Origin: Nitrospirota bacterium
GTDB lineage: Bacteria; JACPQY01
Reading direction: 5' to 3'
Assembly (NCBI GenBank): GCA_016180645.1
Contig: JACPAV010000003.1
Coordinates: forward strand, 268,389 to 332,388
DNA: 64,000 nt
A program made the position numbers and the translations under genes. Below are positions 48,334 to 64,000 of this stretch, piece after piece. The notes under the pieces were generated by a model. That model saw nothing but the letters and a program-made list of their open reading frames with translations. It was not told the DNA's origin and did not search any database. The first letter of the stretch is position 1, and every line of letters begins with the position of its first letter.

Positions 48334-50571
48334 CTATTTCGTGGTGAACACGTAAACGCCGTCCCAGGGGTCCGGCGGCGGCTGTTTCATGAGATCCTGG
48401 GATCTCTGGATATAGATGGTGGACGGCTTGTCCTCCGGCCGGTCTTTCAGGACCCGCTCGAAGGACTTGATCGCGTCTTCGAACTGTTGGGCGCGGTAGA
48501 GACCCAGAGCCTTCTGGAACTCCCCGATGAAGTCGAAGGTATGGGTCGCCCCGTCCTTCTTGCTCAGGAGTTCGTAGATCCGAATGGGTTCTTTTTTGCC
48601 TTTCACCCTCACGAAGTCGAGTTCCCGGTAGATGTAGTTGTCCTTCACCTGGGCGTAGGTCGATTCGCTGATGATGATCTGCGTGCCGTAATTCTTGTTC
48701 GTTCCTTCCAGGCGGGACCCGAGGTTCACGGCGTCGCCCATCACGGTGTAATTGAACCGCGTGTTCGATCCCATGTTTCCCACGCTCATCGGTCCCGTGT
48801 TTAACCCGATTCCGATGTTGATCTTCGGCAGGCCTTCCTTCTCCCACTGCGCCTGGAGTTCCCGGAGCTTCTGCAACATTTCGAGTGCGGTATCGCAGGC
48901 CTTCGCCGCATGGTCGGGATAGTGGATCGGAGCTCCGTAGAAGGCCATGATCGCGTCGCCCATGTATTTGTCCAGCGTGCCGGAATGTTTGAACAGGATG
49001 TCCGTCATGGGCGAGAGGTAGACGTTCAAGAGGTGCACGAGGGCCTCTGGAGTGAGTTTCTCCGAGATGCTGGTGAAATCCCGCACGTCTGAGAACAGCA
49101 CCGTCATCTCCAAGCGTTCGCCGCCCAATTTCAGCATGTCCGGGTTCTCGGTCACTTTGCTGACGACCGCCGGATCGAGATACGATTGGAAGGCGCCCTT
49201 GATCTTCTTCTTTTCCTTCTCTTCGCTGACGTACCGGTAGACGGTGACGCCGAGGAAGACGATGACCATGCAGCCCATCGGGTAGGCCATGGAGATCCAG
49301 TAGCCTTGGCGGATGAAGACCTGGACGATGGCGATGTAGTAGGCCGTCAGAAGCGGAATCAGGATGACGAAGCCCCAGACGGCGGAGAGTCGCACGAGGA
49401 TATTTCCGAGCACGAGGCCCGCGAGGACGATCACGCCCATGTCCATCAGGCGGTACCAGTGCGGCCGTTTCAAGTAATCGTTGTGAAGAATGTTGGAGAT
49501 GACGTTGAGGTGGACCTCCGTGCCGGGGAATTTTTCGTCCAAGGGCGTCACGCGCAAGTCGTACAGACCGGTGGCCGTGGCGCCGACGATGACGGCCTTG
49601 CCTTCCACGTCCTCGCGCTTGACGCGATCCGCCACGATATCGGCGATGCTCATGTGATCGAAACTCTCCGCTTTGCCGACGTAGTTGATGAGCATGCGGC
49701 CCTCGGGGTCGACGGGGATCGTGTGCAGGGGCTCCAGCGTCCCTTTCTTATAGAGGTGCACCTTCGCCAGACCCGACTCGTCCATCTCAAGTCCGAGCGT
49801 GGCATCCATGAGCACACCCGCCATCTGGAGTCCCAGCGAGGGATAGTATTCGTCCCCCGCCCGCGCCACGAGGGTGTACCAGCGGAGCTTCCCGTCCTCA
49901 ATGTCGTTGTCCATGTTGAAATGGCCGAAGAAGCGTGAGTTCTGAGAAAACAACTTGAGATTGGGAACCACGCCCTCGTAGGCGATTCCGGACTGTTTGG
50001 GTGAGCCTTGTTTGACGAGAAGCGTGGGGATGCGCGAGGCGGCCATCATGTCGAGGCTTTCTTTGAACTCGGCGGGATCCTGCGGAGATTCGGCGTCGAA
50101 GAAGTAGCCGAGCACGACGTTTTCGTATTTCTTCAGAGTGTCGGCCAGGATCACGTCGCGGTCCGCTTCCTTGGCTTTTCGGATCAGGAAGGGATCGGAA
50201 AAATACGGAACGAATTCATCGAGGATTTTGCTGGACGAATCGCGCTCGGCCCAGATCATGTCGAGCCCGATGACTTTTGCCCCGAGGGCTTCGAGTTTGT
50301 CGATCACCTGGGCCATCTTGTTCCGCGGCCAGGGGAAACGACCGATCTCTTTCAAGCTCTGTTCGTCGATAGCTGCGAGAACGGCCTCGTGGCCCACATC
50401 CACTTTCTTGCGCTGCTTGAGCCGCGTGTCGTAGGTGAGGAGTTCGAGCCTTTCGAAGAGGCCGACCTGGAAGATGTAAGCGATCAAGATCCCCAGGGTG
50501 ATCATGAAGCTGACCCTGAAACCGGTGAGCTTCAAGACGTGCGCTTTGGCGAAATCAACCAATTTCTTCAT
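48334..50571 (-). CDS. CHASE2-domain adenylate/guanylate cyclase
   Basis: This is a 745-residue membrane cyclase. One N-terminal helix, a periplasmic CHASE2 sensor domain (about 40-330), three further helices (about 370-440) and a cytoplasmic class III cyclase domain (about 500-680) are visible. Metal and substrate residues lie in FSDVRDFTSISE and DKYMGDAIMAFYG. A short TPR-like C-terminus follows. A perfect CRP-type palindrome lies 68 nt upstream. Confidence 0.92.
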   Translation of the reverse strand: MKKLVDFAKAHVLKLTGFRVSFMITLGILIAYIFQVGLFERLELLTYDTRLKQRKKVDVGHEAVLAAIDEQSLKEIGRFPWPRNKMAQVIDKLEALGAKVIGLDMIWAERDSSSKILDEFVPYFSDPFLIRKAKEADRDVILADTLKKYENVVLGYFFDAESPQDPAEFKESLDMMAASRIPTLLVKQGSPKQSGIAYEGVVPNLKLFSQNSRFFGHFNMDNDIEDGKLRWYTLVARAGDEYYPSLGLQMAGVLMDATLGLEMDESGLAKVHLYKKGTLEPLHTIPVDPEGRMLINYVGKAESFDHMSIADIVADRVKREDVEGKAVIVGATATGLYDLRVTPLDEKFPGTEVHLNVISNILHNDYLKRPHWYRLMDMGVIVLAGLVLGNILVRLSAVWGFVILIPLLTAYYIAIVQVFIRQGYWISMAYPMGCMVIVFLGVTVYRYVSEEKEKKKIKGAFQSYLDPAVVSKVTENPDMLKLGGERLEMTVLFSDVRDFTSISEKLTPEALVHLLNVYLSPMTDILFKHSGTLDKYMGDAIMAFYGAPIHYPDHAAKACDTALEMLQKLRELQAQWEKEGLPKINIGIGLNTGPMSVGNMGSNTRFNYTVMGDAVNLGSRLEGTNKNYGTQIIISESTYAQVKDNYIYRELDFVRVKGKKEPIRIYELLSKKDGATHTFDFIGEFQKALGLYRAQQFEDAIKSFERVLKDRPEDKPSTIYIQRSQDLMKQPPPDPWDGVYVFTTK

Positions 50572-50761: not shown

Positions 50762-51544
50762 CTACTCGTGGCACTCCAGGCAGGGTGGCTCTTCCATGTC
50801 GATCAGCTCGCCGTGTTCGGTCTTGTTCGAGTGGCACTGGCGGCAGACCATGCCCTTGGGGAGATGCTCGTCCACCTTGTGGGTCTCCTTGTACTCCAGA
50901 TGGCAGCCGCCGCAATCGCTCCGAACGAGATGTTCGTACAAGGGAGGCTTGATCGAATCCTCGGGATGGCAGGTTTCGCACGTTTCTTTGGTCTGCTCGT
51001 GGCAGCCGTTGCCCATGCAGGCGGTCATCTTCGGGCGGTTCGTCGGCTCGGCCTCATGATCGTGCGTGATGGTGTAGTGACAGTCGGGACAGCGCATCTC
51101 CTCGAGCTTGATGTGGAGCTCGTGGTTCATTTTGATGTGCTTCTCGTTGTGCTCGTATTTGAGTTCTTTCTTGTTCGGGATGTCCTTGTGACAGCGGAGA
51201 CAGTTGTCGTTCAGCCGCTCCGTTCGCGAGGCGAAGACCATGTGGTCGTCCGCATCAGCCATCTGCCAGGGAAATTTCGGCAGGTGCATGGCGTGGCACT
51301 CGACGCAACGCACTTCCGAGTACGGTGGATGGACCTTGGACGTACCGCCGACAAAAGAGGTTTCTCCCGTGGAGTGGCAGCTCAGGCAGTTGTGCGGGCT
51401 GCGCGCGTATTTCGCGAGCCCCCAACCGGAGGTGAGCGCGAAAACGGCTCCCGCCCCCAGGAAGATCGCGAGGTTCCTGATCGTCAGGGGAGGAATGTGG
51501 AGCGTCTTCACGCGACCGATCAGCGATTGGATTCGACGGCCCAT
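50762..51544 (-). CDS. Membrane-anchored multihaem cytochrome c (NapC/NirT-like)
   Basis: This is a 260-residue cytochrome with one N-terminal membrane anchor (about 20-42) and eight CxxCH motifs (CLSCH, CVECH, CLRCH, CPDCH, CETCH, CGGCH, CRQCH, CLECH) plus one CMGNGCH (CX4CH). It should carry electrons between quinol or the molybdoenzyme and periplasmic partners. The ATG follows the molybdoenzyme stop by 5 nt; a GTG at 51553 (GTGA overlap) is an alternative. It is the last gene of the cluster. Confidence 0.9.
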   Translation of the reverse strand: MGRRIQSLIGRVKTLHIPPLTIRNLAIFLGAGAVFALTSGWGLAKYARSPHNCLSCHSTGETSFVGGTSKVHPPYSEVRCVECHAMHLPKFPWQMADADDHMVFASRTERLNDNCLRCHKDIPNKKELKYEHNEKHIKMNHELHIKLEEMRCPDCHYTITHDHEAEPTNRPKMTACMGNGCHEQTKETCETCHPEDSIKPPLYEHLVRSDCGGCHLEYKETHKVDEHLPKGMVCRQCHSNKTEHGELIDMEEPPCLECHE

Positions 51545-51549
51545 GGCGC

Positions 51550-53910
51550 TCACTCGAAGAAGAACAGGTATTTTTCCACGAAGCCCGGCTTCGGCCTGGA
51601 AGCCACTTTCAGGACGGATACCACGGTGTCCTGCCAGGCGACGCCCCCTCCGGCGCGGTCGGTTTTGGCCGCCACTAGCGGCTTCACGTGAACTCCATTC
51701 CCTTCCTTCTCCCACCACACCAGCTTCGTTTCGGGGTTCGCGCTCTTGAACGCCTTGGCCCGTGCCACGTGGCCATACCCCCAGTGGCCGCAATTGTCCG
51801 ATATGGCGATGACGCGGGGGTGGATGCCCTGGACCAGGAGGACTTCGCCCCGGACGATGCCCGTCCGGGAAATCACCTCCAGCACGTCGCCGCTCTCCAG
51901 ACCCAACTCCTCGCCGGTGGACCGGTTGATGAGGATCGGGTTGCGGTGAACGATCTCGGAGAGCTTGAGCGAGCCCGCGGTGTGGTAATGGGTGTGGACG
52001 TTCCACTGGAAGTTTGTCAGGGCGAACTGGCTCGGTCGCATCTCCGCATACTCCGGCACCGGCTCATAGGTCGGCATGGGATTGAGTCCCATTTTCTCCA
52101 GCCGCGCGGAGTGGATTTCGAATTTTCCTGAGGGCGTGTCGAAGCCGCCTTTCCGATATTTCTGGTAGTCCGGTTTGGCGTCGGGATCTCTCCAGAATCC
52201 CTTCTTCACCAGGTATTCCAGGCCGCCCGCCTTTTCCAATCCGGCGATTCCGGCCACCTGCGCGTAGAGGTAGTCCTCGGGATCGAAGTAGAAATATTTC
52301 GTCATGGGGCCATCCAGCAGCGTCGCCAACTCGATCAGGATATCCATGACCGGCTTGGACTCGCCCAGCGGTTTGACCACCGGCTGCCGAAGGCTGACGA
52401 ACGGCACCATTTCCATGGACGGCGGCGATTCCAGTTCCCATCGTTCGAGGTAGGTGGACGCAGGGAGAACGACGTCGGCCAACGCCGCGGTCTCCGTCAT
52501 GTGGCTGTCGATGGCCACATGGAAGGGGATCTTGATTTCGTTCTTGAAAAGGGCATCCACGGCTTCCGTGTGGGGCGCCTCGTACAGGGGGTTTCCCATG
52601 TAGGTGAACCACACGCCGATTTGCGGTTTCTCCATCTCCGCCAGCTTTTCGAAGAGACCATAGGTCGATTCCCGGCCCGTCTGGGAATTAAGGAAGGCGC
52701 TCGCTGCGGCGGGTTTCGGCGGAACGGGCTCGGGATCGCGGAAGGCGTAGCTCCGCGGGAGGCAGAAGCCGCCGAGGGCGTCGATGCGGCCGGTGACCGC
52801 GTTGAGGAGCATGATGCAACGCTCATTCTGCACGCCGTTGACGTGCTTGCTGACGCCTCCGGAAGAGATCGTGGTGGCGTACCGGCTCCGGGCGAATTCG
52901 AGGGCGATGCGGACGATGTCCGCCGCTGCGACGCCGCTTTCCTGCTCGGCCCGCTCGGGGGTGTACGGCGCGAGGTGCTTCCGGAGCCGGTCCGGCGCCA
53001 CGTTGGTCCAGTTTCTCAGAAAGGCTTCATCGTGGAGGTTCTCCCGCATGATGACGTGGGCCATCGCCAGCGCGATCAATCCGTCCGTGCCGGGGAACGG
53101 CGCAAACCATTCATCGCTCCGGCCGGCGGTCTGGCTGCATCGCACGTCGAAGCTGACGAGCTTGGCGCCGTAATGCACCTGGGAATGCCGGATCTTCGTC
53201 TGCCTTCCTTCGGTCAGCCGCTGGACGAAACTCGTGCGCAGATAGTGCGCTTCGTACGGATTGGCGCCGAAGTTGAGAATGTACTCGGTGTTGACCACGT
53301 CGGACACCTCAACAGGCGCTCCCCATGTGGCCTCCTGCGCCAGACGCTTGTTCTGGTTCGTCAGACCCACGTGAACGAGCGCGTTCGGGGAGCCGAAGGC
53401 ACGGGCAAATCGTTCGGTGAACTTCTGCGTCGTAATGTCCCGGCTGCTGTACAAGAAAAACTTTTCGGGTGTCTTCGCCTCCCACAGAGCGCGGAGTTTC
53501 CCGCCGACCAGTTTGTGGGCCTCGTCCCAGGAGATCTGTTTCCATTGGCCCTCGCCCCGCTTTCCGGTGCGGACCATCGGATGAAGGATCCGTTCAGGAT
53601 CGTAGAGGATGTCTTTGGCCGCGTGACCCTTGGCGCACATGCGGCCGCGCGAGTTGGGGTGATTGGGATTTCCTCCGACCTTGGCCAGCGCTCCGTCCGT
53701 CGCATACCCGATGATCCCGCACCGCGCATAGCAGTTCAGGCACGTGCTGTGGATGTTCCGGTGCGCGCGGCGCGTCGTCCGCGTGACGCTCCTCCCCCCC
53801 ATCTGGAGCTCCATGGGGAGGGTGGCCTTGGGAAGCAGCGTTCCGGCGGCCGCGATGCCCGCCGCCGCGCCCGTAGTCATGAGGAACTGCCTTCGGTGGA
53901 GTTTTCTCAT
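51550..53910 (-). CDS. Tat-exported molybdopterin oxidoreductase, catalytic subunit
   Basis: This is a 786-residue bis-MGD enzyme of the PsrA/PhsA/TtrA type. A Tat signal (RRQFLMTTGAAAG) precedes the [4Fe-4S] site C57-x2-C60-x3-C64-x27-C92. Where PsrA relatives have the Mo ligand Cys (HSSxC), this protein has HVGLTNQN (H180, T184), so neither Cys, Ser nor Sec is in place. The C-terminal domain contains HTHYHTAGSL and the molybdopterin-dinucleotide domain. Start: ATG 1 nt after the NrfD gene stop. Substrate unknown. Confidence 0.9.
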   Translation of the reverse strand: MRKLHRRQFLMTTGAAAGIAAAGTLLPKATLPMELQMGGRSVTRTTRRAHRNIHSTCLNCYARCGIIGYATDGALAKVGGNPNHPNSRGRMCAKGHAAKDILYDPERILHPMVRTGKRGEGQWKQISWDEAHKLVGGKLRALWEAKTPEKFFLYSSRDITTQKFTERFARAFGSPNALVHVGLTNQNKRLAQEATWGAPVEVSDVVNTEYILNFGANPYEAHYLRTSFVQRLTEGRQTKIRHSQVHYGAKLVSFDVRCSQTAGRSDEWFAPFPGTDGLIALAMAHVIMRENLHDEAFLRNWTNVAPDRLRKHLAPYTPERAEQESGVAAADIVRIALEFARSRYATTISSGGVSKHVNGVQNERCIMLLNAVTGRIDALGGFCLPRSYAFRDPEPVPPKPAAASAFLNSQTGRESTYGLFEKLAEMEKPQIGVWFTYMGNPLYEAPHTEAVDALFKNEIKIPFHVAIDSHMTETAALADVVLPASTYLERWELESPPSMEMVPFVSLRQPVVKPLGESKPVMDILIELATLLDGPMTKYFYFDPEDYLYAQVAGIAGLEKAGGLEYLVKKGFWRDPDAKPDYQKYRKGGFDTPSGKFEIHSARLEKMGLNPMPTYEPVPEYAEMRPSQFALTNFQWNVHTHYHTAGSLKLSEIVHRNPILINRSTGEELGLESGDVLEVISRTGIVRGEVLLVQGIHPRVIAISDNCGHWGYGHVARAKAFKSANPETKLVWWEKEGNGVHVKPLVAAKTDRAGGGVAWQDTVVSVLKVASRPKPGFVEKYLFFFE

Positions 53911-53911
53911 G

Positions 53912-54826
53912 TCAGTGCAGGGGTATGCTTTGACCGGCATAGACCACCGTGAGTCGCATCGCGTAAATTCCGAGGAGGACGAGAACCGAAGCCACATTCG
54001 CGGAGGCGAGCGAACCCCGAAACGGCTTCACAAAGATCAGAATCAGGGGAATCAGACTCCCAAGGAACACCTCCACGCCCAGGAACAGGAACGTGAACTT
54101 CCCGTGGAGGAGGAGCTGAGCCACGTAGTACTCCTCCGCCTTGGAGGTCAGGAGGACCAGGATGTCGTTGGAAATCAGGAAGAGGTCCACGATGATCACC
54201 GCACCGAGGAATTTCACCAGATTCAGGATCAGCCCCTTCTCGACCTCCGTTTCCTTGGGATCGCGTTTCTTGGCCGCCCAGCGGTTGTAGATCGAGGCAG
54301 CCACAACCATGAGCGCGAAGCCGGAGACCATGGCGGAGACGAGGAAGAGCGTCGGCATGAGCGCCGTGCTCCACAGGGGCCGGCCTTTTCCAAGGGCGAG
54401 AATGAATCCCGTGTAGCCGTGCACACACACTGCGAGCGGGATGCCAATGATGCCGATGAGCTTGGCCGCCTTCTGCCTCCCCGTGAAGAGCGCCCACGCG
54501 TAAAGCGTTGCATTGAGTGGATAGGAAGTCAGGAGGAAAGTGCCGTAGGTGATGGGGGACGTCATATGGAGATAGACGAAGAGGTACCAGAACCGCGTCG
54601 GCTGCTCGAGATCGATGACAAGGAAAAGAGGGGCGATGACGAGGGCCAACGGCGCCATGATGGAGCCGATCTTTGCGAGAGCCTTGTACTCGGTGCGGCC
54701 GCCGAGGACGGCGATAACGGAGATGACGAACGATCCGGCGGAGATGCCCGTGAGGTAGAAGTAGGTGGCGATTTCCTTCCCCAGGGGGATGACGTGCGGG
54801 GTGTTGAAAAGCGTTTGTGCTTCCAC
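53912..54826 (-). CDS. NrfD/PsrC-like membrane subunit
   Basis: This is a 304-residue polytopic membrane protein with about eight helices, starting at a GTG preceded by GGAGGAGGA. It is the quinol-interacting membrane anchor of the PsrABC/NrfD type (LGKEIATYFYLTGISAGSFV). It lies 1 nt after the ferredoxin gene. Confidence 0.9.
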   Translation of the reverse strand: MEAQTLFNTPHVIPLGKEIATYFYLTGISAGSFVISVIAVLGGRTEYKALAKIGSIMAPLALVIAPLFLVIDLEQPTRFWYLFVYLHMTSPITYGTFLLTSYPLNATLYAWALFTGRQKAAKLIGIIGIPLAVCVHGYTGFILALGKGRPLWSTALMPTLFLVSAMVSGFALMVVAASIYNRWAAKKRDPKETEVEKGLILNLVKFLGAVIIVDLFLISNDILVLLTSKAEEYYVAQLLLHGKFTFLFLGVEVFLGSLIPLILIFVKPFRGSLASANVASVLVLLGIYAMRLTVVYAGQSIPLH

Positions 54827-54827
54827 C

Positions 54828-55535
54828 CTATTCCTCCTCCCAGCCTTTGAGAGGATCGGCGGCGTCCAGATCAAGGCCGATGTAAAACACCCGGGGGTTC
54901 GTACCCATTTCCGGTTTGAGCACGCTGACCGGTTCCGTGGCCAGGATTTGGGAGATCTCGCTGTTTGGATCGTTCATGTCCCCGAAGATCCGGGCTCGAC
55001 CGATGCACGTTTCCACACAGGCCGGCACAAGCCCCGCATCCACCCGATGGTCGCAGAACGTGCATTTCTGCACGTATTTCTTGAGGGGATTCACGTATCG
55101 CACGTCGTATGGGCACGAGGCCATGCAGTACTTGCAGCCGATGCACCGGTGCTGGTCGATCATCACGATCCCATCCTCCCGTTGCCAGGTCGCTTCAACG
55201 GGGCAGTTGGCCAGACAGATCGGTTTCTCGCAGTTATTGCAAAGGATGGGGACGAACGAGCGGGAGACATGCGGGTACTTCCCTTTTTCGACGACCTTCA
55301 CCCATGTGCGGAATACGCCTGGCGGGACGTCGTTCTCCTCCTTGCAGGCCACCGTGCAGGACTGGCAGCCGATGCAGCGGCGGAGGTCGATGACCATCGC
55401 GTAGCGCTTCCTGCCTGCCTTTCCCGCGGCCGGACCTTTGGCGCCCTCGTGACCGACCCGGTGGGCGAGCCCTTCGCGGCCCGCAGACGCAGCCGTTCCG
55501 GGCAGTCCGCCAGCCTCTTTCTCCTTCGCAGCCAT
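54828..55535 (-). CDS. Four-cluster ferredoxin subunit (PsrB/NrfC-like)
   Basis: This is a 235-residue iron-sulfur protein. Four Cys groups (CIGCQSCTVAC, CNNCEKPICLANC, CIGCKYCMASC, CTFC plus CVETC) would hold four [4Fe-4S] clusters and pass electrons between the NrfD subunit and the molybdoenzyme. The first about 45 residues are an Ala/Gly/Lys-rich extension with no Tat signal, so export probably depends on the catalytic subunit. Confidence 0.92.
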   Translation of the reverse strand: MAAKEKEAGGLPGTAASAGREGLAHRVGHEGAKGPAAGKAGRKRYAMVIDLRRCIGCQSCTVACKEENDVPPGVFRTWVKVVEKGKYPHVSRSFVPILCNNCEKPICLANCPVEATWQREDGIVMIDQHRCIGCKYCMASCPYDVRYVNPLKKYVQKCTFCDHRVDAGLVPACVETCIGRARIFGDMNDPNSEISQILATEPVSVLKPEMGTNPRVFYIGLDLDAADPLKGWEEE

Positions 55536-55587
55536 ATTGACAGCCCTTCGGGATGTTCCGGGAAACGGTTCCCGGGCCCTTCAGCCG

Positions 55588-56025
55588 CTATTTCTCGTCT
55601 TCTTCTTCTTCTTCCTCGGCTGCGCCGGCGCCCTCTTCCTCGGGCGTGACAGCGACCTTGGTCTTCCGAGCTGCCAGCCACTCGGTGAGGGTCTTCAGCT
55701 CTTCGTCCGTGCCCTTGAATTTCTTCTTGTGGCCGACCTTCTTGGATTTATCGAAATGCGACTCGATCTTCACTTCCTTCTTCAGCCATTTGGTGAAGAA
55801 CGCGGCGTCTTGTTCCGCTCCGACGTTGGAGAGATCCGGCCCCTTCTTGGCCTTGCCGGTTTTCTTGCTGATTTTTTTCTCGATGGCTTCCGCCTTGACC
55901 AAGTGGCAGTCGTTACACTTCTTCTCCAGGAAGATGTCTTTTCCTGAAGCGGCGAACGTCGCCGAAGGCAGCGCCGCCGCCAGGAACGGCGCCACGACGA
56001 ACAGCGAAACAAGCCTGCGCATCAT
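55588..56025 (-). CDS. Monohaem cytochrome c with acidic tail
   Basis: This is a 145-residue periplasmic cytochrome. A signal peptide (about 1-26) precedes CNDCH (37-41). The central region is Lys-rich and the C-terminus is a run of Glu residues (AAEEEEEEDEK). Strong opposite charge patches suggest protein-protein docking. It precedes the FeS/NrfD/Mo genes and follows the gap with repeats. Confidence 0.85.
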   Translation of the reverse strand: MMRRLVSLFVVAPFLAAALPSATFAASGKDIFLEKKCNDCHLVKAEAIEKKISKKTGKAKKGPDLSNVGAEQDAAFFTKWLKKEVKIESHFDKSKKVGHKKKFKGTDEELKTLTEWLAARKTKVAVTPEEEGAGAAEEEEEEDEK

Positions 56026-56381
56026 CGGGATTCCTCCTTTTCCAAATAGGCGTCCGGTCGGACGACCTCGGTATTTATGGGTGTCTCCACTCAGATCACC
56101 TTTCTGCGGGAGGGTAACAACCGTTCCCGGTGTCGCCCATGACCACGGTCAACACTTGTAAGCGTTCAGCCATCAGCCGTCAGCAATCAGCTTCAGGATC
56201 CGGAATCAGGGGACCGGCCGTCTCTCGTCCTCTTCCTCTTCCTGCGGCCCAAGCGGATGGCCGAGAGCTTAGAGCGTCTAACAGAATGCGTAGGGGAGGG
56301 TCTTCAGACCCTCCCGACAAGAGGGAGCATCTGAAGATGCTCCCCTACGAATCGGCATTCTGTTAGAGGCTCCTAGGAAAC
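56026..56381. other. 356-nt gap with repeats inside the respiratory cluster
   Basis: This gap separates the cyt b/Rieske part from the molybdoenzyme part. It holds a GCTGA micro-repeat tract (56163-56195) and a composite palindromic element (56278-56366). No gene is visible. Confidence 0.7.
56278..56366. repeat. Composite palindromic repeat element, copy 1
   Basis: Outer 12-bp inverted repeats CTAACAGAATGC (56278-56289) and GCATTCTGTTAG (56355-56366) enclose two 22-bp palindromes: GGGAGGGTCT-TC-AGACCCTCCC (56294-56315) and GGGAGCATCT-GA-AGATGCTCCC (56323-56344), joined by a short GACAAGA linker. A second, expanded copy lies at the right end of the window. Confidence 0.85.
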
Positions 56382-57239
56382 TCAGTCCTTCGGGTCCTCG
56401 AGATACTTCCGTTTGCGATGGATGACGAAGGCCCCGATCAAGAGGAACACGGTGAAGAATCCGCCTGCGATTTGGCGACGCTTCAGGACATCCTCCTGCT
56501 CTCCAATCCGGGTCGCCAGGATCCGCGCATCTTTCGTGACGGTCTCCGCAATCTCGATGACCCGGTCGAGGTCCAGGATGTGGCTGAGGTGATGGAACAC
56601 GTTCCGCTGGGCGAAATGGGCCTGCTGGAGGGATCGCACGTCCCACCCTTCCGACCTCAACACGGCGATCCGATTTTCGAGTTCGACGAGCCGCGCCTCC
56701 GCATCGGTCATGGCCACCTTGATCCGCTTCGAGCGCTCATACTTGTGGCACTCGGAGCAGGTGTCTTCGTTGATCAGATCCAGGTTGGCCTTCTTGATCC
56801 TGTGCGCCTCGTGGCAGGTGATACAGACCGGACGCTTCTCCTTCTTCGTCAGCCAGTGTTTGCTTTTGACGTAGTTCTCCTGGATGGCCACGTGGCATTT
56901 GCCGCATACCGCGGGCACATCGTCGTCCGCCGGCGCGCCGATGAACTCCGACTCCTCCTCATCGTGCGCGTCCTCTTCCTCGGAGGCGGCCGGATTGCCC
57001 CCGTGGCAATCGTTGCACGCAATGGAGTTTTCGTGGTGGATGCTTTCGCGCCACTCCTTGGGCGGAATCGCAAGATCCTCGTTTTCCTCCTCCTGCTCGA
57101 GGTGGCATTTGACGCACTGGTTTTCGGGCGGAATATCCTCCGCCCACGCGGTCGCAACGAACGCCGCCGGGAGAAGGATCAGCGCCCCCAAGGCCCTTCG
57201 GAGCTGAAAGCTGATCGCTGACGGCCGATCGCTCCTCAT
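56382..57239 (-). CDS. Pentahaem cytochrome c with C-terminal membrane anchor
   Basis: This is a 285-residue protein. A signal peptide is followed by five CxxCH motifs (CVKCH, CNDCH, CGKCH, CITCH, CSECH). A helical stretch (about 175-240) leads to one C-terminal helix (about 255-272) and a basic end. Its ATG overlaps the cytochrome b stop as ATGA. It could replace cytochrome c1 as electron acceptor of the Rieske/cyt b complex. The N-terminal codons contain GCTGA-type micro-repeats. Confidence 0.88.
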   Translation of the reverse strand: MRSDRPSAISFQLRRALGALILLPAAFVATAWAEDIPPENQCVKCHLEQEEENEDLAIPPKEWRESIHHENSIACNDCHGGNPAASEEEDAHDEEESEFIGAPADDDVPAVCGKCHVAIQENYVKSKHWLTKKEKRPVCITCHEAHRIKKANLDLINEDTCSECHKYERSKRIKVAMTDAEARLVELENRIAVLRSEGWDVRSLQQAHFAQRNVFHHLSHILDLDRVIEIAETVTKDARILATRIGEQEDVLKRRQIAGGFFTVFLLIGAFVIHRKRKYLEDPKD

Positions 57240-58291
57240 GACAGATGCCCCCAGACCGTCAGGCCGACGAACGAAGCCAGCCCGGCGAAAACGGCAGCGA
57301 GGAACAGCGGACGCTTCAGCGGCCGCCTTTCCGGATTACGGTCGATAAACGGAAGGAGCAGGATCGCAAGTCCGGCCAGTCCCTGCGCGGCCACTCCCAG
57401 GAACTCATTGGGAATGATTTTGAGCATCTGGTAGTTCGCCAGGAAGTACCATTCCGGCTTGATGTGGGGCGGCGTAAATAGGGGATCGGCCGGCTCCATG
57501 GCATCCGGCGGGAAGCTGATCTGCGGGGTGAAGAAAACGCCGAAGAAGAGCAACGCAAGAAAGAAGTAGACCACGCGGAGGTCTTCCAGCGCGAAATGAG
57601 GGAAGAACGGAACCTTCTTCACCTGGTCCTTGGGAATGCCCGGCGGGGCGGAAATCCCGGCGCGCCGCATAAAGAAGAGGTGGGCGGCCACGATCATCGC
57701 GAAGAGCGGCGGGAGAACCGAAACGTGGAGCGCGTAGAAACGGCCGAGAGTCATCTGATCGACGCGGTCCCCCCCGCGGATCCATCGGACGATATCGTCG
57801 CCGATCACGGGCACCGATCCGGCGGAGTTCGTCGCTACTGTCGTCGCCCAGTACGAAAGCTGACTCCACGGCAGGAGGTAGCCCGAGAGGCAGGCCATGA
57901 GGCCCAATCCGAACAGGACCACGCCGCTGATCCACTGGATCTCGCGCGGTTTCTTGTAGGAGCCCATGATGAGGGTGCTCAGCATGTGGAGCATGAGGAC
58001 GAGGATGAAGAGATTCGCGGCGATCGCGTGCGTTCTCCGGATGAGCCATCCGAACGAGATCTTGCCGGTGATATTCATGACGCTCTCGAACGCGAGCGAC
58101 GTGTGGGGGATGTAGTACGCGAGCAGGAGAATCCCGGTGGCGAACTGAATGCCCAGCACGGTGAGGAGGACGGCCCCCATGGAGTACCAGACGCTGAGGT
58201 TCGCCGGAACCATGTAGCCCGTGAGATGAGTCTCGATGAGTTCCCGGTATTGAACGCGCTCTTCAAGCCAGTCGAGGATCTTTTTCACCAT
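57236..58291 (-). CDS. Cytochrome b of a bc-type complex
   Basis: This is a 351-residue polytopic protein combining the b6-like and subunit IV-like parts. Haem ligands H88/H102 and H189/H204 are present; the second pair has 14 residues between, as in b6f-type proteins. The Qo-site PEWY motif is at about 279-282. It starts 4 nt after the Rieske gene. Confidence 0.92.
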   Translation of the reverse strand: MVKKILDWLEERVQYRELIETHLTGYMVPANLSVWYSMGAVLLTVLGIQFATGILLLAYYIPHTSLAFESVMNITGKISFGWLIRRTHAIAANLFILVLMLHMLSTLIMGSYKKPREIQWISGVVLFGLGLMACLSGYLLPWSQLSYWATTVATNSAGSVPVIGDDIVRWIRGGDRVDQMTLGRFYALHVSVLPPLFAMIVAAHLFFMRRAGISAPPGIPKDQVKKVPFFPHFALEDLRVVYFFLALLFFGVFFTPQISFPPDAMEPADPLFTPPHIKPEWYFLANYQMLKIIPNEFLGVAAQGLAGLAILLLPFIDRNPERRPLKRPLFLAAVFAGLASFVGLTVWGHLS

Positions 58292-58295
58292 GACG

Positions 58296-58727
58296 TCACG
58301 CCTCGAACAACCGGACCGAGTCTTCCACGACTTCCACGCGGTAGCGTGTGAGGCCGCGGGGCGGCGGTCCGGAGATTCGGTTTCCGTTGCTGTCAAACTT
58401 TGCGGCGTGACAAGGACACAGGATCTTGCCTTCGGCCTTCTGCCAGCGGACGATGCAGCCGAGGTGGGGGCAGACGGCGCTGAAGCCCCTCCACTCGCCT
58501 CCGTGATGGACGACGAGCGTCGGTTCGCCGAAGGCCAGTCCGGTTCGCGCCCCTTCCCGCACAACCTCCTCCGCCCGGATGGGTTCACCGTCCAGGTTGG
58601 TGAGGGTGTTGTCACCCTTCGCCGAGGGTTTGGGAAAGAAGTACGCGGCCACCGGAGCGACGAATGCAAGACCCGTGATCCAGCCCACGGCTTGAGTCAA
58701 GGTGTCGAAAAACCCTCTTCGGGTCAT
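58296..58727 (-). CDS. Rieske iron-sulfur protein
   Basis: This is a 143-residue protein. The N-terminus is a membrane anchor preceded by TRRGFFDTL (Tat-like). The [2Fe-2S] ligands are C86-P-H88-LG-C91 and C104-P-C106-H107. It is the high-potential acceptor of quinol oxidation in the bc-type complex encoded with the following gene. Confidence 0.93.
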   Translation of the reverse strand: MTRRGFFDTLTQAVGWITGLAFVAPVAAYFFPKPSAKGDNTLTNLDGEPIRAEEVVREGARTGLAFGEPTLVVHHGGEWRGFSAVCPHLGCIVRWQKAEGKILCPCHAAKFDSNGNRISGPPPRGLTRYRVEVVEDSVRLFEA

Positions 58728-58736
58728 ATTTCCTCC

Positions 58737-59966
58737 TTACCTGGGGGTTCGACGGCGGAAGGCCATCCAGCCCACAAACAGCATCAGCACAGCCGCCGCA
58801 GCCATCAAGATGGTTTTCCCCGGGAGCTGCTTTTTCGCCGGCACATGGAACTTGTCCCGCGCCATGGCGAATTGCATCGCGGAATGGTTCCCGGGGAGCT
58901 GCGGATGGAATTCGTAGGTCAGGACGGCCTCCACGGAGAAGGGGCCGGGCGGCACGGTTTCATTGAACTGAAAGGTCTCACGGCGGGTTTCCTGCGGGCG
59001 GACGCGATTGTCGCTGATCACCTTCACGGAATTGAGAAACATATCCGTGATGCTTTCGTTTGGAATTTCGGCGCCGGAACGATCCGCCAGAATTCGCCGA
59101 TACACCAGATCCCGCGCGCCCAGAAGCCGGCCTTTCTCATCCACCAAGCGGGCGGTCAGGACCAACTTGCGCGCCGGGAGGCCCGTCGGTATGGCGTGTC
59201 CGGATTCGCTGTTGGTCACATAGACGATCGCTTCCAGTCCCTGACCTTTTCTTTCAGCGAGCACGGAGATTTTCGCGGCATTTCCGACCCGGATCTGGGA
59301 GTGCCCTCCCATCACGGAATGCGAAGTGACGGTCTTGGTGCTGGGCGCCACATCGCGGTCGACGATGGTGAACCGGATGTCCTCCGGCATGTGGCAATTC
59401 TGGCATGCCGTGCCCGATCCGGGGTACGGGCCGGTGCTCCACTCTTCATAGGTATTCATGACGTGGAGGCCGTGGGCATTGATCACTTCGTGACAGCCGC
59501 CGCAAAACTCACCCTTCTTGTGCAGAGGGGAAAAGGCGTTCTTGTGACCTTTCTCCGTAAGCTCGCTCGGCTGGAATGGACCCCACTTCGTATCTCCCGG
59601 CTGGACCTTGTACCGTTGGAGGCCGGGCCCCATCGGCAGGAGATCCGTGACAGAGTGGCAGAAATCGCAGGTAACTCCCTCGCGTGCCACCGGATCCGAA
59701 AGTTTGTCGTCCCCGGTGATTTGGGTGATCGGGGCGTGGCAGGAGAGGCAGTAGCGTCGATCCTCCGGCCGGGTAACCGTGTCGAAGCTCGCGCGGAAGA
59801 CCGGATCTTCGAGCGAGAGGGCGTGCATGGAGTCCTTCCATTCGGAATAGATCCCCGAATGGCATTCGCCGCATTTCTTGGCGCTCTCGAAGCGGTTGGC
59901 AGCCCACGCAGACGACGAGGCCATTTCAGAAAGAAGCAGAGCGACAGGGAGGAAGGCGATTCTCAC
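58737..59966 (-). CDS. Pentahaem cytochrome c, membrane-anchored
   Basis: This is a 409-residue protein. It has a signal peptide (about 1-22) and five CxxCH motifs (CGECH, CLSCH, CDFCH, CGGCH, CQNCH), then a large beta-rich region (about 210-370) and one C-terminal helix with a basic end. The haem part resembles the cytochrome c554/multihaem family. It sits next to the Rieske gene, so it may serve as the electron acceptor of the complex. Confidence 0.88.
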   Translation of the reverse strand: MRIAFLPVALLLSEMASSSAWAANRFESAKKCGECHSGIYSEWKDSMHALSLEDPVFRASFDTVTRPEDRRYCLSCHAPITQITGDDKLSDPVAREGVTCDFCHSVTDLLPMGPGLQRYKVQPGDTKWGPFQPSELTEKGHKNAFSPLHKKGEFCGGCHEVINAHGLHVMNTYEEWSTGPYPGSGTACQNCHMPEDIRFTIVDRDVAPSTKTVTSHSVMGGHSQIRVGNAAKISVLAERKGQGLEAIVYVTNSESGHAIPTGLPARKLVLTARLVDEKGRLLGARDLVYRRILADRSGAEIPNESITDMFLNSVKVISDNRVRPQETRRETFQFNETVPPGPFSVEAVLTYEFHPQLPGNHSAMQFAMARDKFHVPAKKQLPGKTILMAAAAVLMLFVGWMAFRRRTPR

Positions 59967-59978
59967 GCGACGAGCGGC

Positions 59979-60446
59979 TTAGTTGTTCGCGGCCCCTTGC
60001 TGCACCCAGGCTTGCACGATGGCGGCTTTGTCGGCGCCAAGGGCCGCTCCGCCGATGTGACCGTCGCCTCCCGTACCTTTCTTGATGAGCTTGCTGTCCG
60101 CCGGAGAATCGACATTCACGAGGGCTTTGATCCCGGCGTAGTCGTTCGCAGCCACTCCGGTTACCTTGTATGAGCCGATGCCGGCCGCATGGCAATTGCA
60201 ACTCGCTTGGAGCACCGGAAGAACGTCCTTGGAAAAGCTGTACTCCGTTCCGCCTGCTCCACCGCCCGCGCCGCCGCCGGTGTCGCCGGTCCCACCGCCT
60301 CCACCGCCGGATACGGCCCCGGCCTCTTCAGCGCGGCTGAAGGGGTCGCCGCACGAAGAGAGGGTGAGGAGTGAGGCGCAAGCCGTGAGCAGCAGGAAAG
60401 AAAACAGGATCGATCGAAGACCTGGAAAATTGCCGCGCATAGCCAC
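59979..60446 (-). CDS. Lipoprotein with a CXCH haem-like motif
   Basis: This is a 155-residue lipoprotein. It has a lipobox at C32 (LTLSSC), a Gly-rich linker (about 47-67), then LPVLQASCNCH, where the haem site reads C83-N-C85-H86, one residue short of CxxCH. The rest resembles PSD1/Cyt c-type domains of lipoproteins. Whether haem is bound is open. Confidence 0.75.
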   Translation of the reverse strand: MAMRGNFPGLRSILFSFLLLTACASLLTLSSCGDPFSRAEEAGAVSGGGGGGTGDTGGGAGGGAGGTEYSFSKDVLPVLQASCNCHAAGIGSYKVTGVAANDYAGIKALVNVDSPADSKLIKKGTGGDGHIGGAALGADKAAIVQAWVQQGAANN

Positions 60447-60452
60447 CTCCGA

Positions 60453-61592
60453 CTAGAATTCGATGACCGCCGCGAGGCGGACCAGATCGTTGGGTTGCTC
60501 GTTCGCCGCTTCGAGGTTGACGAAATACTCGATTCCCGTCGACAGGATCTTGTAGTCCCACCACAGGCCGACGTTGTGGCTGACCATGTCCTTCTCGTCT
60601 TTGCGGTCCTTGTCGAAGTAGAACCCTTCGATGTTGTCGAGCGAGACGAAGCCGGTGCGATATCGACAGCGCAGATCCCATGGGAGCTTGTAGTCCACCT
60701 GGAGGTAATCGCCGAAGTGATAGTAGGAGGTGATGGTGGAGTCACCTTCGACTCGCTCACTGCCCCGCACATACGCCTTGATGAAACCCGCCTTGAGGGA
60801 GAGGTTGCTAAGCGGTCCCACGGGGAGGAATCCGTATGCCGCCGCGGCGTCCAAGCCCACCAGGAACAGGCCGCTGTCGCTGAAGTACTGGTTCCAATAG
60901 AACGATCCCCACACGCTGTATTTCCCGGCGCCCAGGCGCAACCGGTCTCCCGCCCCCGCTTGCCCGGAATTTTCCGTCGTCTTGCTGATATCCACCATCT
61001 CGTTCAGTTTCCCCTCGGGACCCGGCACGACGTAGAACTCGTTGTCGATTCGGAGGCCGGGCCTGTCGGTGATGGGGTACAGGAAAGACCCGCCGTAGGT
61101 GGTCCAAAGGAAGGGGACCAGTTTCTGATCGAACCCCGTGAGCCCGCCGTAGGCGCGGTGAAAGAGCGGATCGGCGCCGAACGGCATGAAGATCTTTCCG
61201 AACTTCAGCAGCCGGTTCTTTCCCAGTTTGACGCCCACTTCGAAGAACTTAAAATCGACGATTTCCGCGGAAAAAGAGAATGGCTCGTCCTTCTTCCTCC
61301 GGCTCAGGAAAACGAAATGATGGTAATTCTTGAAGTAATCTTTGCCCTCTTCGGGGTTGCCCGTGAACTTCTCCTTCTCATAGGTGAGATCGAAGCGACC
61401 GTTGATCATGAATCCGGAGAGCTGAATTCCCGGCGCCGGCTTCCCGCTTTCGGATTCCGATTCCTCGGCCGCCAGCACCCACATGGGCATCAGGACCACC
61501 ATGAGCGCCGTCGCCAGGAACAATCCGAGCCAAACCAGGATTGAGCTGACCGCTGAATGCTGAGCGCTGACCGCTCCGCTCTCACTTTGCAT
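60453..61592 (-). CDS. Outer-membrane beta-barrel protein
   Basis: This is a 379-residue exported protein. After a signal peptide (about to residue 45) the sequence alternates polar and aromatic residues in many strands and ends in LVRLAAVIEF, with a terminal Phe typical of barrel insertion. It is predicted to be an outer-membrane porin-like protein. Co-localised cytochromes suggest a porin-cytochrome conduit (MtrB-like role), but sequence similarity to MtrB is not claimed. The start is placed at the ATG at 61592; upstream codons overlap the c7-like gene. Confidence 0.8.
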   Translation of the reverse strand: MQSESGAVSAQHSAVSSILVWLGLFLATALMVVLMPMWVLAAEESESESGKPAPGIQLSGFMINGRFDLTYEKEKFTGNPEEGKDYFKNYHHFVFLSRRKKDEPFSFSAEIVDFKFFEVGVKLGKNRLLKFGKIFMPFGADPLFHRAYGGLTGFDQKLVPFLWTTYGGSFLYPITDRPGLRIDNEFYVVPGPEGKLNEMVDISKTTENSGQAGAGDRLRLGAGKYSVWGSFYWNQYFSDSGLFLVGLDAAAAYGFLPVGPLSNLSLKAGFIKAYVRGSERVEGDSTITSYYHFGDYLQVDYKLPWDLRCRYRTGFVSLDNIEGFYFDKDRKDEKDMVSHNVGLWWDYKILSTGIEYFVNLEAANEQPNDLVRLAAVIEF

Positions 61593-61932
61593 GGCACACC
61601 TCGCAATCGACCTCTTCATCCTCCGGGTAGAAGGCGACATCACCGTTGTGGCACGCGCCGCAGTACTTGCCGGCGTCTATGTCTTCATGCGTCATGCCCA
61701 CCTTCTTCTGCATCGAGAAGAGTGAGGCATGGCAAGCATAGCACTTGAACTCCTCCTGGTGCTTCCAGTGAGGAAACTTGGCGACCTCTTCGTCGGCTTC
61801 CTCGACGCGCGTCATCGTGATCCACGCGGGATTGGCCACGAGCAACTTCCCGCCCCCAAGAACGGCGCCCGCGACGATCCCAACGGACATCAGGAATAAA
61901 ATCTTTCTTCGGTCATGGTCGGATTTCATCAT
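61582..61932 (-). CDS. Triheme c7-like cytochrome, membrane-anchored
   Basis: This is a 116-residue protein. One N-terminal helix follows a basic start, and three CxxCH motifs (CYACH, CGACH, CEVCH) plus extra His residues resemble c7/c3-type cytochromes. The start follows GGAGG closely (two adjacent ATGs). It overlaps the barrel gene by 11 nt. Confidence 0.85.
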   Translation of the reverse strand: MMKSDHDRRKILFLMSVGIVAGAVLGGGKLLVANPAWITMTRVEEADEEVAKFPHWKHQEEFKCYACHASLFSMQKKVGMTHEDIDAGKYCGACHNGDVAFYPEDEEVDCEVCHAK

Positions 61933-62001
61933 GCCTCCAAACTTAACCAAACGCGCTTCTTGCGATATGACGGAGGTCAATTTTAATCCCGGCGCCTCTC
62001 A

Positions 62002-62433
62002 TCAGTTCCCGCACGCTCCCAGGGAGATCCACGCGCTTACGATCCGATATTCACCGGAAGATTCGGCCAGGATTGCGCCGCCTCCGTGGGACGTCTGACC
62101 GGAAGCCTTCATGAGAAGGTAGCTCTCCGTCGGCTTCCCGGGAGTGACGAGTCCTTTTACCATGGAGTAGTCGCCCGTTGCATCCGTGGCCAAAACAAAT
62201 GCAGTCGCCCCCCCCGGCAGGCCCGGAGCGTGGCAGCCGGCGCACCTCGACCGCAGCAGGGGGTACACTTCATTCGAGAAATTGCTCTCCTCCTGGCACG
62301 TCGGAGGGGGCGAGTCCTCCTCTGTGCTTCCTCGATCGGAGAGTCCGCAGCCTGGAATCGTGAGCAGTGAGCCGCAAGTCGCGAGCCGAAAGACTGCGAA
62401 AAGGAAAGTGCGCCTCGCGGTGTCGATTCCCAT
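62002..62433 (-). CDS. Monohaem cytochrome lipoprotein
   Basis: This is a 143-residue protein with a lipobox at C29 (LTIPGC) and one CAGCH haem motif (64-68). It is the first gene of the respiratory cluster. The N-terminal RRTF could also be read as Tat-like, but the lipobox is the stronger signal. Confidence 0.82.
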   Translation of the reverse strand: MGIDTARRTFLFAVFRLATCGSLLTIPGCGLSDRGSTEEDSPPPTCQEESNFSNEVYPLLRSRCAGCHAPGLPGGATAFVLATDATGDYSMVKGLVTPGKPTESYLLMKASGQTSHGGGAILAESSGEYRIVSAWISLGACGN

Positions 62434-63835: not shown

Positions 63836-64000
63836 AGAGCCTCTGACGGAATGCCGATTCGTAGGGGAGCATCTTCAGATGCTCCCTCTTGTCCTTGCCT
63901 CTTCGTAGGGGAGCATCTTCAGATGCTCCCTCTTGTCGGGAGGGTCTGAAGACCCTCCCCTACTTGCTCCCTCTTGTCGGGAGGGTCTGAAGACCCTCCC
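63836..64000. repeat. Composite palindromic repeat element, copy 2 (expanded)
   Basis: Two copies of GGGAGCATCT-TC-AGATGCTCCC (63865-63886, 63909-63930) and two of GGGAGGGTCT-GA-AGACCCTCCC (63938-63959, 63979-64000), linked by TCTTGTC, continue past the window. The left end (AGCCTCTGACGGAATGCCGATTC) matches the outer repeat of copy 1. Confidence 0.85.

Follow-up and report, generated by a model that had tools for sequence, protein, structure and literature searches.

The 64,000-nucleotide stretch analyzed here (the window) lies at the end of a 332-kb contig (JACPAV010000003.1) from an uncultured member of a rare bacterial phylum; the genome, of 4.7 Mb, is 97% complete. Between positions 50762 and 62433 it carries a cluster of 13 genes, here numbered g01 to g13 from high to low coordinates, that encodes a Rieske/cytochrome b module, a complex iron-sulfur molybdoenzyme (CISM) module, several c-type cytochromes, and a predicted outer-membrane β-barrel. 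When the region was re-read with refined starts, all 13 open reading frames were present and all lay on the minus strand, in agreement with a first-pass annotation of the sequence. The tight packing described there was borne out as well, as neighboring genes overlap by 4 to 11 bases or lie 1 to 12 bases apart, save for three larger gaps of 69 bases (g01/g02), 52 bases (g09/g10), and 356 bases (g08/g09, 56026 to 56381). The CxxCH motifs number 23, as had been counted, and are distributed over six proteins (one in g01, three in g02, five in g05, five in g08, one in g09, and eight in g13); the two nonstandard heme-like motifs are CNCH (CxCH) in g04 and CMGNGCH (CX4CH) in g13. The earlier figure of seven heme proteins thus holds if g04 is included, and falls to six without it. 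Both odd motifs recur in a second genus, as CACH in g04 and CMGSGCH in g13, so that they are not sequencing slips. Pfam and NCBIfam backed the assignments to the Rieske, cytochrome b (N- and C-terminal), NrfD, ferredoxin (Fer4_11), and molybdopterin oxidoreductase families, whereas g01, g03, and g04 matched no Pfam family. Comparisons were made against up to 386 genomes, in which the phylum of this bacterium is represented by two genomes, and the phyla of relatives were assigned through small phylum-level searches.

At the center of the cluster lie a Rieske iron-sulfur protein resembling PetC (g06, 58296 to 58727; PF00355, 46.5 bits; CPHLGC and CPCH motifs) and a cytochrome b in which b6 and subunit IV are fused (g07, 57236 to 58291; PF00033, PF13631, and PF00032). 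The 2Fe-2S motifs of g06 are complete, and in g07 the two b-heme His pairs and the PEWY motif align, with 14 residues between the His ligands of helix D, as in b6. The position of the heme-ci ligand Cys35 departs from the b6 type, being Ser in g07 and its counterpart in the second genus, but Cys in five of the other loci (L046, L047, and L055 to L057). No cytochrome f or c1 subunit was detected by Pfam in the cluster. Instead, g07 is followed by a pentaheme cytochrome c with a C-terminal transmembrane (TM) helix at residues 256 to 274 (g08, 56382 to 57239; PF14522 and PF09699) and by a monoheme cytochrome c (g09, 55588 to 56025; PF00034, 25 bits). A g08-type gene also follows cytochrome b in L007, L046, L047, L055 to L057, and L149, and g08 likely replaces cytochrome f/c1. 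Paralogs of g09 are found on contigs C12 and C40 of the same genome, and there are two in the second genus.

Upstream of the Rieske gene lies g05 (58737 to 59966), a pentaheme cytochrome with a C-terminal anchor and a c554-like N terminus. An AlphaFold2 model of g05 built from 16 sequences (predicted local distance difference test [pLDDT] 80, predicted template modeling score [pTM] 0.76) aligned over 323 residues with the pentaheme cytochrome c552 of Thermochromatium tepidum (5ze8; VIA Z 27.3). The same structure was matched by the sequence profile (E = 1.7e-36), as was the selenoprotein MccSep (9wt8; E = 1.8e-13). With its five CxxCH motifs and a c552 fold that includes an Ig-like C-terminal domain, g05 belongs to the c552/ExtKL (sPHC) family; at 65.7 bits against an NCBIfam cutoff of 250, it is not an ExtKL ortholog by that criterion. 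Genes of this family adjoin Rieske/cytochrome b genes at ten loci (the window, L007, L055 to L058, L147, and L149 to L151) and CISM genes resembling alternative complex III (ACIII) at four others (L010, L146, L152, and L155), and they adjoin both types at L145. In the bacterium itself, one g05 paralog (C40, L010) neighbors an ACIII-like operon that also has a g04 paralog, and another (C12, L157) neighbors a g09 paralog. The family thus tracks quinol-oxidizing complexes of several types, and its presence beside them at some fifteen loci makes g05 the likely acceptor of quinol-derived electrons. L145 (G188:C18) is itself a second gathering of CISM, g05-type, and Rieske/cytochrome b genes in the genome that also holds L046, with ACIII-like genes and cytochromes of four and five hemes.

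The CISM module comprises g10 (54828 to 55535), a four-cluster ferredoxin subunit of the PsrB/TtrB/DsrO kind (PF13247, 91 bits) whose best NCBIfam match is TtrB and which passes the DsrO cutoff (209.1 versus 200); g11 (53912 to 54826), an NrfD/PsrC membrane subunit of 304 residues with about eight TM helices by hydropathy (PF03916, 151 bits); g12 (51550 to 53910), a catalytic-type subunit exported by the twin-arginine translocation (Tat) pathway; and g13 (50762 to 51544), an NrfH-like multiheme cytochrome with an N-terminal TM anchor. The last of these matched TIGR03153 (NrfH) weakly and nothing in a PDB sequence search; shorter or longer related forms stand beside g12 relatives, and a multiheme gene adjoins those relatives wherever the extent of the contig lets it be seen. 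The description of this module as PsrABC-like stands for the set of A, B, and C subunits, the FS0 cysteines, and the NrfD anchor, and it does not extend to the multiheme partner or to the molybdenum site. Among proteins of solved structure, PsrA is the best match to g12 (2vpw; E = 1.6e-61), but the Mo-ligating Cys (SLC in PsrA and SVC in ArrA) is replaced in g12 by Thr184. Thr or Gly occupies this position in all nine members of the g12 clade (Gly in seven of the eight relatives of g12), and all four FS0 cysteines are kept. Of nine loci outside the clade, seven have Cys at the Mo-ligand site, and every one carries Asp or Ser as its third FS0 residue.

Among 82 columns conserved in the Cys-type enzymes, g12 keeps 76, and the ACIII-like paralogs of the same genome keep 47 to 48. 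Of the nine loci outside the clade, seven have an adjoining gene for a TorD-like chaperone; among the nine clade loci, only L105 has one, between its relatives of g12 and g13. Contig ends truncate L106 and L048 in this survey, and the idea that TorD marks every Cys-type relative was replaced by that of a trend. In the Cys-type sister group, one gene (L109, 7848 to 10313) has Gly at the Mo-ligand position and an adjoining TorD gene. The notion that a ligand-less g12 must be free of cofactor was dropped in view of the high residue retention, the TorD gene of L105, and the combination of Gly and TorD in L109. NrfD subunits of about eight TM helices go with genuine Mo enzymes and those of ten with cofactor-less partners (PMC6303296), which places g11 with the former. 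The balance of this evidence favors a cofactor-bearing, ligand-free site, and g12 probably still holds a bis-molybdopterin guanine dinucleotide (bis-MGD) cofactor without a protein ligand to the metal.

At the other end of the cluster, g03 (60453 to 61592), the gene for the predicted outer-membrane β-barrel, and the cytochrome gene g02 are flanked on either side by a gene for a predicted lipoprotein. The gene g01 (62002 to 62433) encodes a predicted monoheme lipoprotein, its CxxCH motif and lipobox-like signal being recognized by eye; g02 (61582 to 61932) encodes a triheme c7-type cytochrome, membrane-anchored or periplasmic (PF14522, 48 bits); and g04 (59979 to 60440) encodes the predicted lipoprotein in which CxCH replaces CxxCH. 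The g04 counterpart in the second genus lies at L007 10173 to 10526, and the g04 paralog at L010 carries CSGCH; the loss of one residue relative to that paralog is kept across genera. For g03, an AlphaFold2 model built from five sequences (pLDDT 66, pTM 0.67) has 16 strands, and on realignment its closest likenesses were OprO (VIA Z 23.6) and OprP (23.3), with 284 residues aligned at 14 to 16% identity, other 16-strand porins giving Z scores of 20 to 22. In this model, the resemblance to OprO/OprP is one of fold only; g03 had no Pfam match up to an E value of 0.1, two of its homologs had none up to 0.01, and a PDB sequence search with g03 returned no match. A search of the phylum around G366 (seven genomes) for further barrels gave no new match. 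The predicted pore is a candidate for the passage of small anions.

The first-pass annotation had suggested that the barrel might form a porin-cytochrome conduit for extracellular electron transfer, and several features point that way: the barrel adjoins c-type cytochromes in all lineages sampled (L007 and L051 to L053), two lipoproteins are predicted, and the g05 family includes ExtKL, which work on cable bacteria joins with the c552-like proteins in one pentaheme family related to the archaeal, extracellular cytochrome nanowires (PMC11976967). However, a 16-strand OprP-like barrel is narrow for a multiheme wire, the cluster holds no MtrA-like decaheme cytochrome, the lipoproteins are monoheme or carry only CxCH, and in other phyla the barrel is accompanied by small c-type cytochromes and by no quinone module. 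A barrel predicted to be this small makes an Mtr-type wire through it unlikely, and the Mtr-type conduit was set aside on strand number and the absent decaheme partner. We regard extracellular transfer through g03 as very improbable, and a substrate channel as more likely than an Mtr-type conduit.

The cluster is conserved beyond this genome. In a different genus of the same family (G001, locus L007; contig JACPQY010000040.1, "Nitrospirae bacterium NC_groundwater_665"), the genes run g13-g12-g11-g10-g09-g08-g07-g06-g05-(extra g09-like)-g04-g03-g02, with order and strand both conserved and identities of 49 to 83%. There g01 is absent and an extra monoheme gene of the g09 type stands between g05 and g04. 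In this other genus, 12 of the 13 genes have orthologs in conserved order, which removes chance as an explanation, and the order is unbroken across the 56.0- to 56.4-kb gap. In addition, two genomes of a phylum represented by four genomes (G188 and G043; L046 and L047) carry genes for the Rieske protein, b6, subunit IV, a nine-heme anchored cytochrome, the iron-sulfur and NrfD subunits, a g12 relative, and a hexaheme relative of g13 as one run, together with cytochromes of 11 and 16 hemes; a third genome of that phylum (G386, L106) has the same run as far as g12, where the contig ends. The barrel is not part of the run in G188 and G043. The search for the same gene order in other genomes therefore shows that such clusters are not always split at the gap, the outcome that would have spoken for two operons, and the genes behave as a co-inherited unit, in support of the single system that the first-pass annotation had suggested.

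Two or three independent operons that happen to be neighbors (g01 to g09 and g10 to g13), the barrel unit having some other role, would account for the 356-base gap, which contains a nested palindromic repeat (56272 to 56372; inverted repeats of 30 and 18 nt), and for the occurrence of every module alone in other genomes. The g05-g06-g07 set stands apart from any CISM module, accompanied by g08 in L055 to L057, L147, and L149 and by no detected g08 in L058 and L151; g10 to g13 occur without Rieske/cytochrome b in L048, L049, L050, and L105; and the barrel is found with the triheme g02 as its sole companion in L051 and L052, a pairing also present in L007, and with a monoheme and a hexaheme lipoprotein in L053, where a g01 homolog adjoins it. 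Against this reading stand the conserved order on both sides of the gap in G001 and the recurrence of the module join in a different phylum. The palindrome is absent from the corresponding gap in G001, and its 25-base core has an exact second copy at 63938 to 63962, at the contig end, where the contig probably broke at this repeat family. The separate occurrences thus point to modular assembly rather than to two unrelated operons, and we consider independent operons improbable.

We propose, with a probability of about 0.5, that the locus is one co-inherited, quinone-linked periplasmic respiratory system of three modules, akin to the ext system of Geobacter with a CISM-multiheme module added. 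In module 1 (g05 to g09), the b6f-like g06/g07 complex would oxidize menaquinol with a Q-cycle, and electrons would pass through the anchored pentaheme g08 and the monoheme g09 to the pentaheme g05. Module 2 (g10 to g13), a complex of NrfD, four-cluster iron-sulfur, molybdoenzyme-type, and nine-heme subunits, would form a second link between quinone and periplasmic cytochromes, which it may share through g13. In module 3 (g01 to g04), the OprP-like porin may admit a small, probably anionic, substrate or release a product, while the triheme g02 and the lipoproteins g01 and g04 would pass electrons on near the outer membrane, so that the chemistry would be periplasmic. This single-system proposal is supported by the synteny of L007 across the gap and from the Rieske/cytochrome b-multiheme-FeS-NrfD-g12-g13 run in L046, L047, and L106 (cut at g12), and it draws further on the neighbors, fold, and profile of g05, on L150, on the porin fold, on the retention of conserved columns in g12, and on the TorD gene of L105. 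Several points weigh against it. The g02-g03 pair, g05 to g08, and g10 to g13 each occur alone elsewhere, so that co-location need not mean one complex; the confidence of the barrel model is modest; no TorD gene lies beside g12; and the missing Mo ligand would also fit a g12 that, like QrcB or ActB, has no cofactor.

In a rival reading that we hold to be rather unlikely, g10 to g13 would act as a Qrc-like feeder of the menaquinone pool, drained by Rieske/cytochrome b in one operon. Such a pairing of feeder and drain avoids two competing quinol oxidases, and the genome encodes two heme-copper oxidases; arsenite oxidase, too, has no protein ligand to its molybdenum. The parts of g10 to g13 (multiheme, Mo-type, iron-sulfur, and NrfD) are those of Qrc, which feeds menaquinone, but g11 is the short NrfD form of about eight TM helices rather than the ten-TM QrcD type (PMC6303296), and g12 falls far under the QrcB cutoff. 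Moreover, clusters with two quinol-oxidizing complexes are known (Caldithrix nap, PMC5317091), and L150, with its two copies of g05 and genes for Rieske, b6, subunit IV, and the iron-sulfur and NrfD subunits, has no molybdoenzyme to serve as a donor. A bolder form of our proposal, which we hold to be doubtful, is that g12 typifies an undescribed CISM clade that binds Mo- or W-bis-MGD without a protein ligand and works with a multiheme cytochrome, and that it is physically linked, in this phylum, to a b6f-like complex, one operon encoding a complete periplasm-to-quinone-to-periplasm energy-conserving circuit.

Several further observations concern CISM genes and the surroundings of the cluster. 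At L050 (4549 to 16639), a g10-g13-type complex comes after genes for an acyl-coenzyme A dehydrogenase and EtfAB-like proteins and before a gene for a 651-residue membrane iron-sulfur oxidoreductase-like protein (by eye), a context hinting at quinone-linked fatty-acid oxidation. SPFH/prohibitin-like genes were seen by eye inside two CISM operons of different genomes (L049, 6683 to 7675; L010, 8572 to 9477). Five PF00384 enzymes of about 1,000 residues (L064, L066, L068, L076, and L078) lie within 35 kb at G000:C24:21600-56027, next to a COX1 gene (C24:18585-20000), and a similar array is found on C47 of G001. The next gene downstream of the cluster, on the same strand (48334 to 50571), appears by eye to encode a CHASE2-like adenylate cyclase.

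Our results show that poorly known phyla have repeatedly combined three elements: quinol oxidation of the bc type, quinone chemistry of the NrfD type, and pentaheme cytochromes of the ExtKL family. The clade without the Mo-ligating Cys also poses a clear test: whether a CISM subunit whose cofactor pocket is intact but lacks a protein ligand catalyzes or only conducts. In the literature searched, no cluster that has all of these parts was found, in agreement with the first-pass annotation, although Geobacter ext, Caldithrix nap, and Qrc are close partial precedents; the parts are known and recurrent, and what looks undescribed is their combination, along with the ligand-less CISM clade and its multiheme partner.

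Among known systems, the Mtr/Pio conduit (a large barrel of about 26 strands with a decaheme cytochrome) differs from the 16 strands predicted for g03 and a cluster with no decaheme gene, and ACIII differs in its ActB fusion and two NrfD subunits, as g12 and g10 are separate genes with one NrfD; the genome has a separate ACIII-like locus (L009). PsrABC/PhsABC share the Tat-exported catalytic-type subunit, the four-cluster iron-sulfur subunit, and the NrfD subunit of about eight TM helices, and the window differs in the change of the Mo-ligating Cys to Thr or Gly, in the multiheme g13, and in the rarity of adjacent TorD genes in its clade. QrcABCD shares the set of membrane-anchored multiheme, molybdoenzyme-like, iron-sulfur, and NrfD subunits; QrcB is cofactor-less (PMC6303296), whereas g12 retains the majority of the conserved columns along with its FS0 cysteines, g11 is of the short form, and the Qrc equivalog cutoffs were not reached (QrcB, 171.7 versus 440; QrcD, 29.6 versus 570). 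The c552 of T. tepidum shares its fold and five CxxCH motifs with g05, which differs in its C-terminal TM anchor and its position beside a bc-type complex. Rieske/cytochrome b complexes with multiheme partners are described in Methanoperedens, where they are coupled to nitrate reductase (PMC4683180), and in Caldithrix, where two quinol-oxidizing complexes serve one molybdoenzyme within the nap cluster (PMC5317091), so that the idea of coupling Rieske/cytochrome b to a molybdoenzyme is not itself new; in the window, the partners of the complex are instead a porin and a CISM module of the NrfD type. The proposed system is akin to the Geobacter cluster extHIJKLMNOPQS for selenite and tellurite reduction (PMC5877670, PMC6148476), which shares a porin-like barrel, an ExtKL-type pentaheme, a Rieske protein, a cytochrome b, and multiheme cytochromes. 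That cluster is without the molybdoenzyme/FeS/NrfD module, the window is without the rhodanese, the 12-heme ExtM, and the 10-heme ExtN, and, beyond ExtKL, the ExtP cutoff was also not reached (187.9 versus 290). ExtI reportedly bears a weak similarity to porins selective for phosphate (PMC5877670), so that by description, the only level of comparison here, both ExtI and g03 are OprP-like. The cluster thereby ties the little-understood ext system of Geobacter to a wider group.

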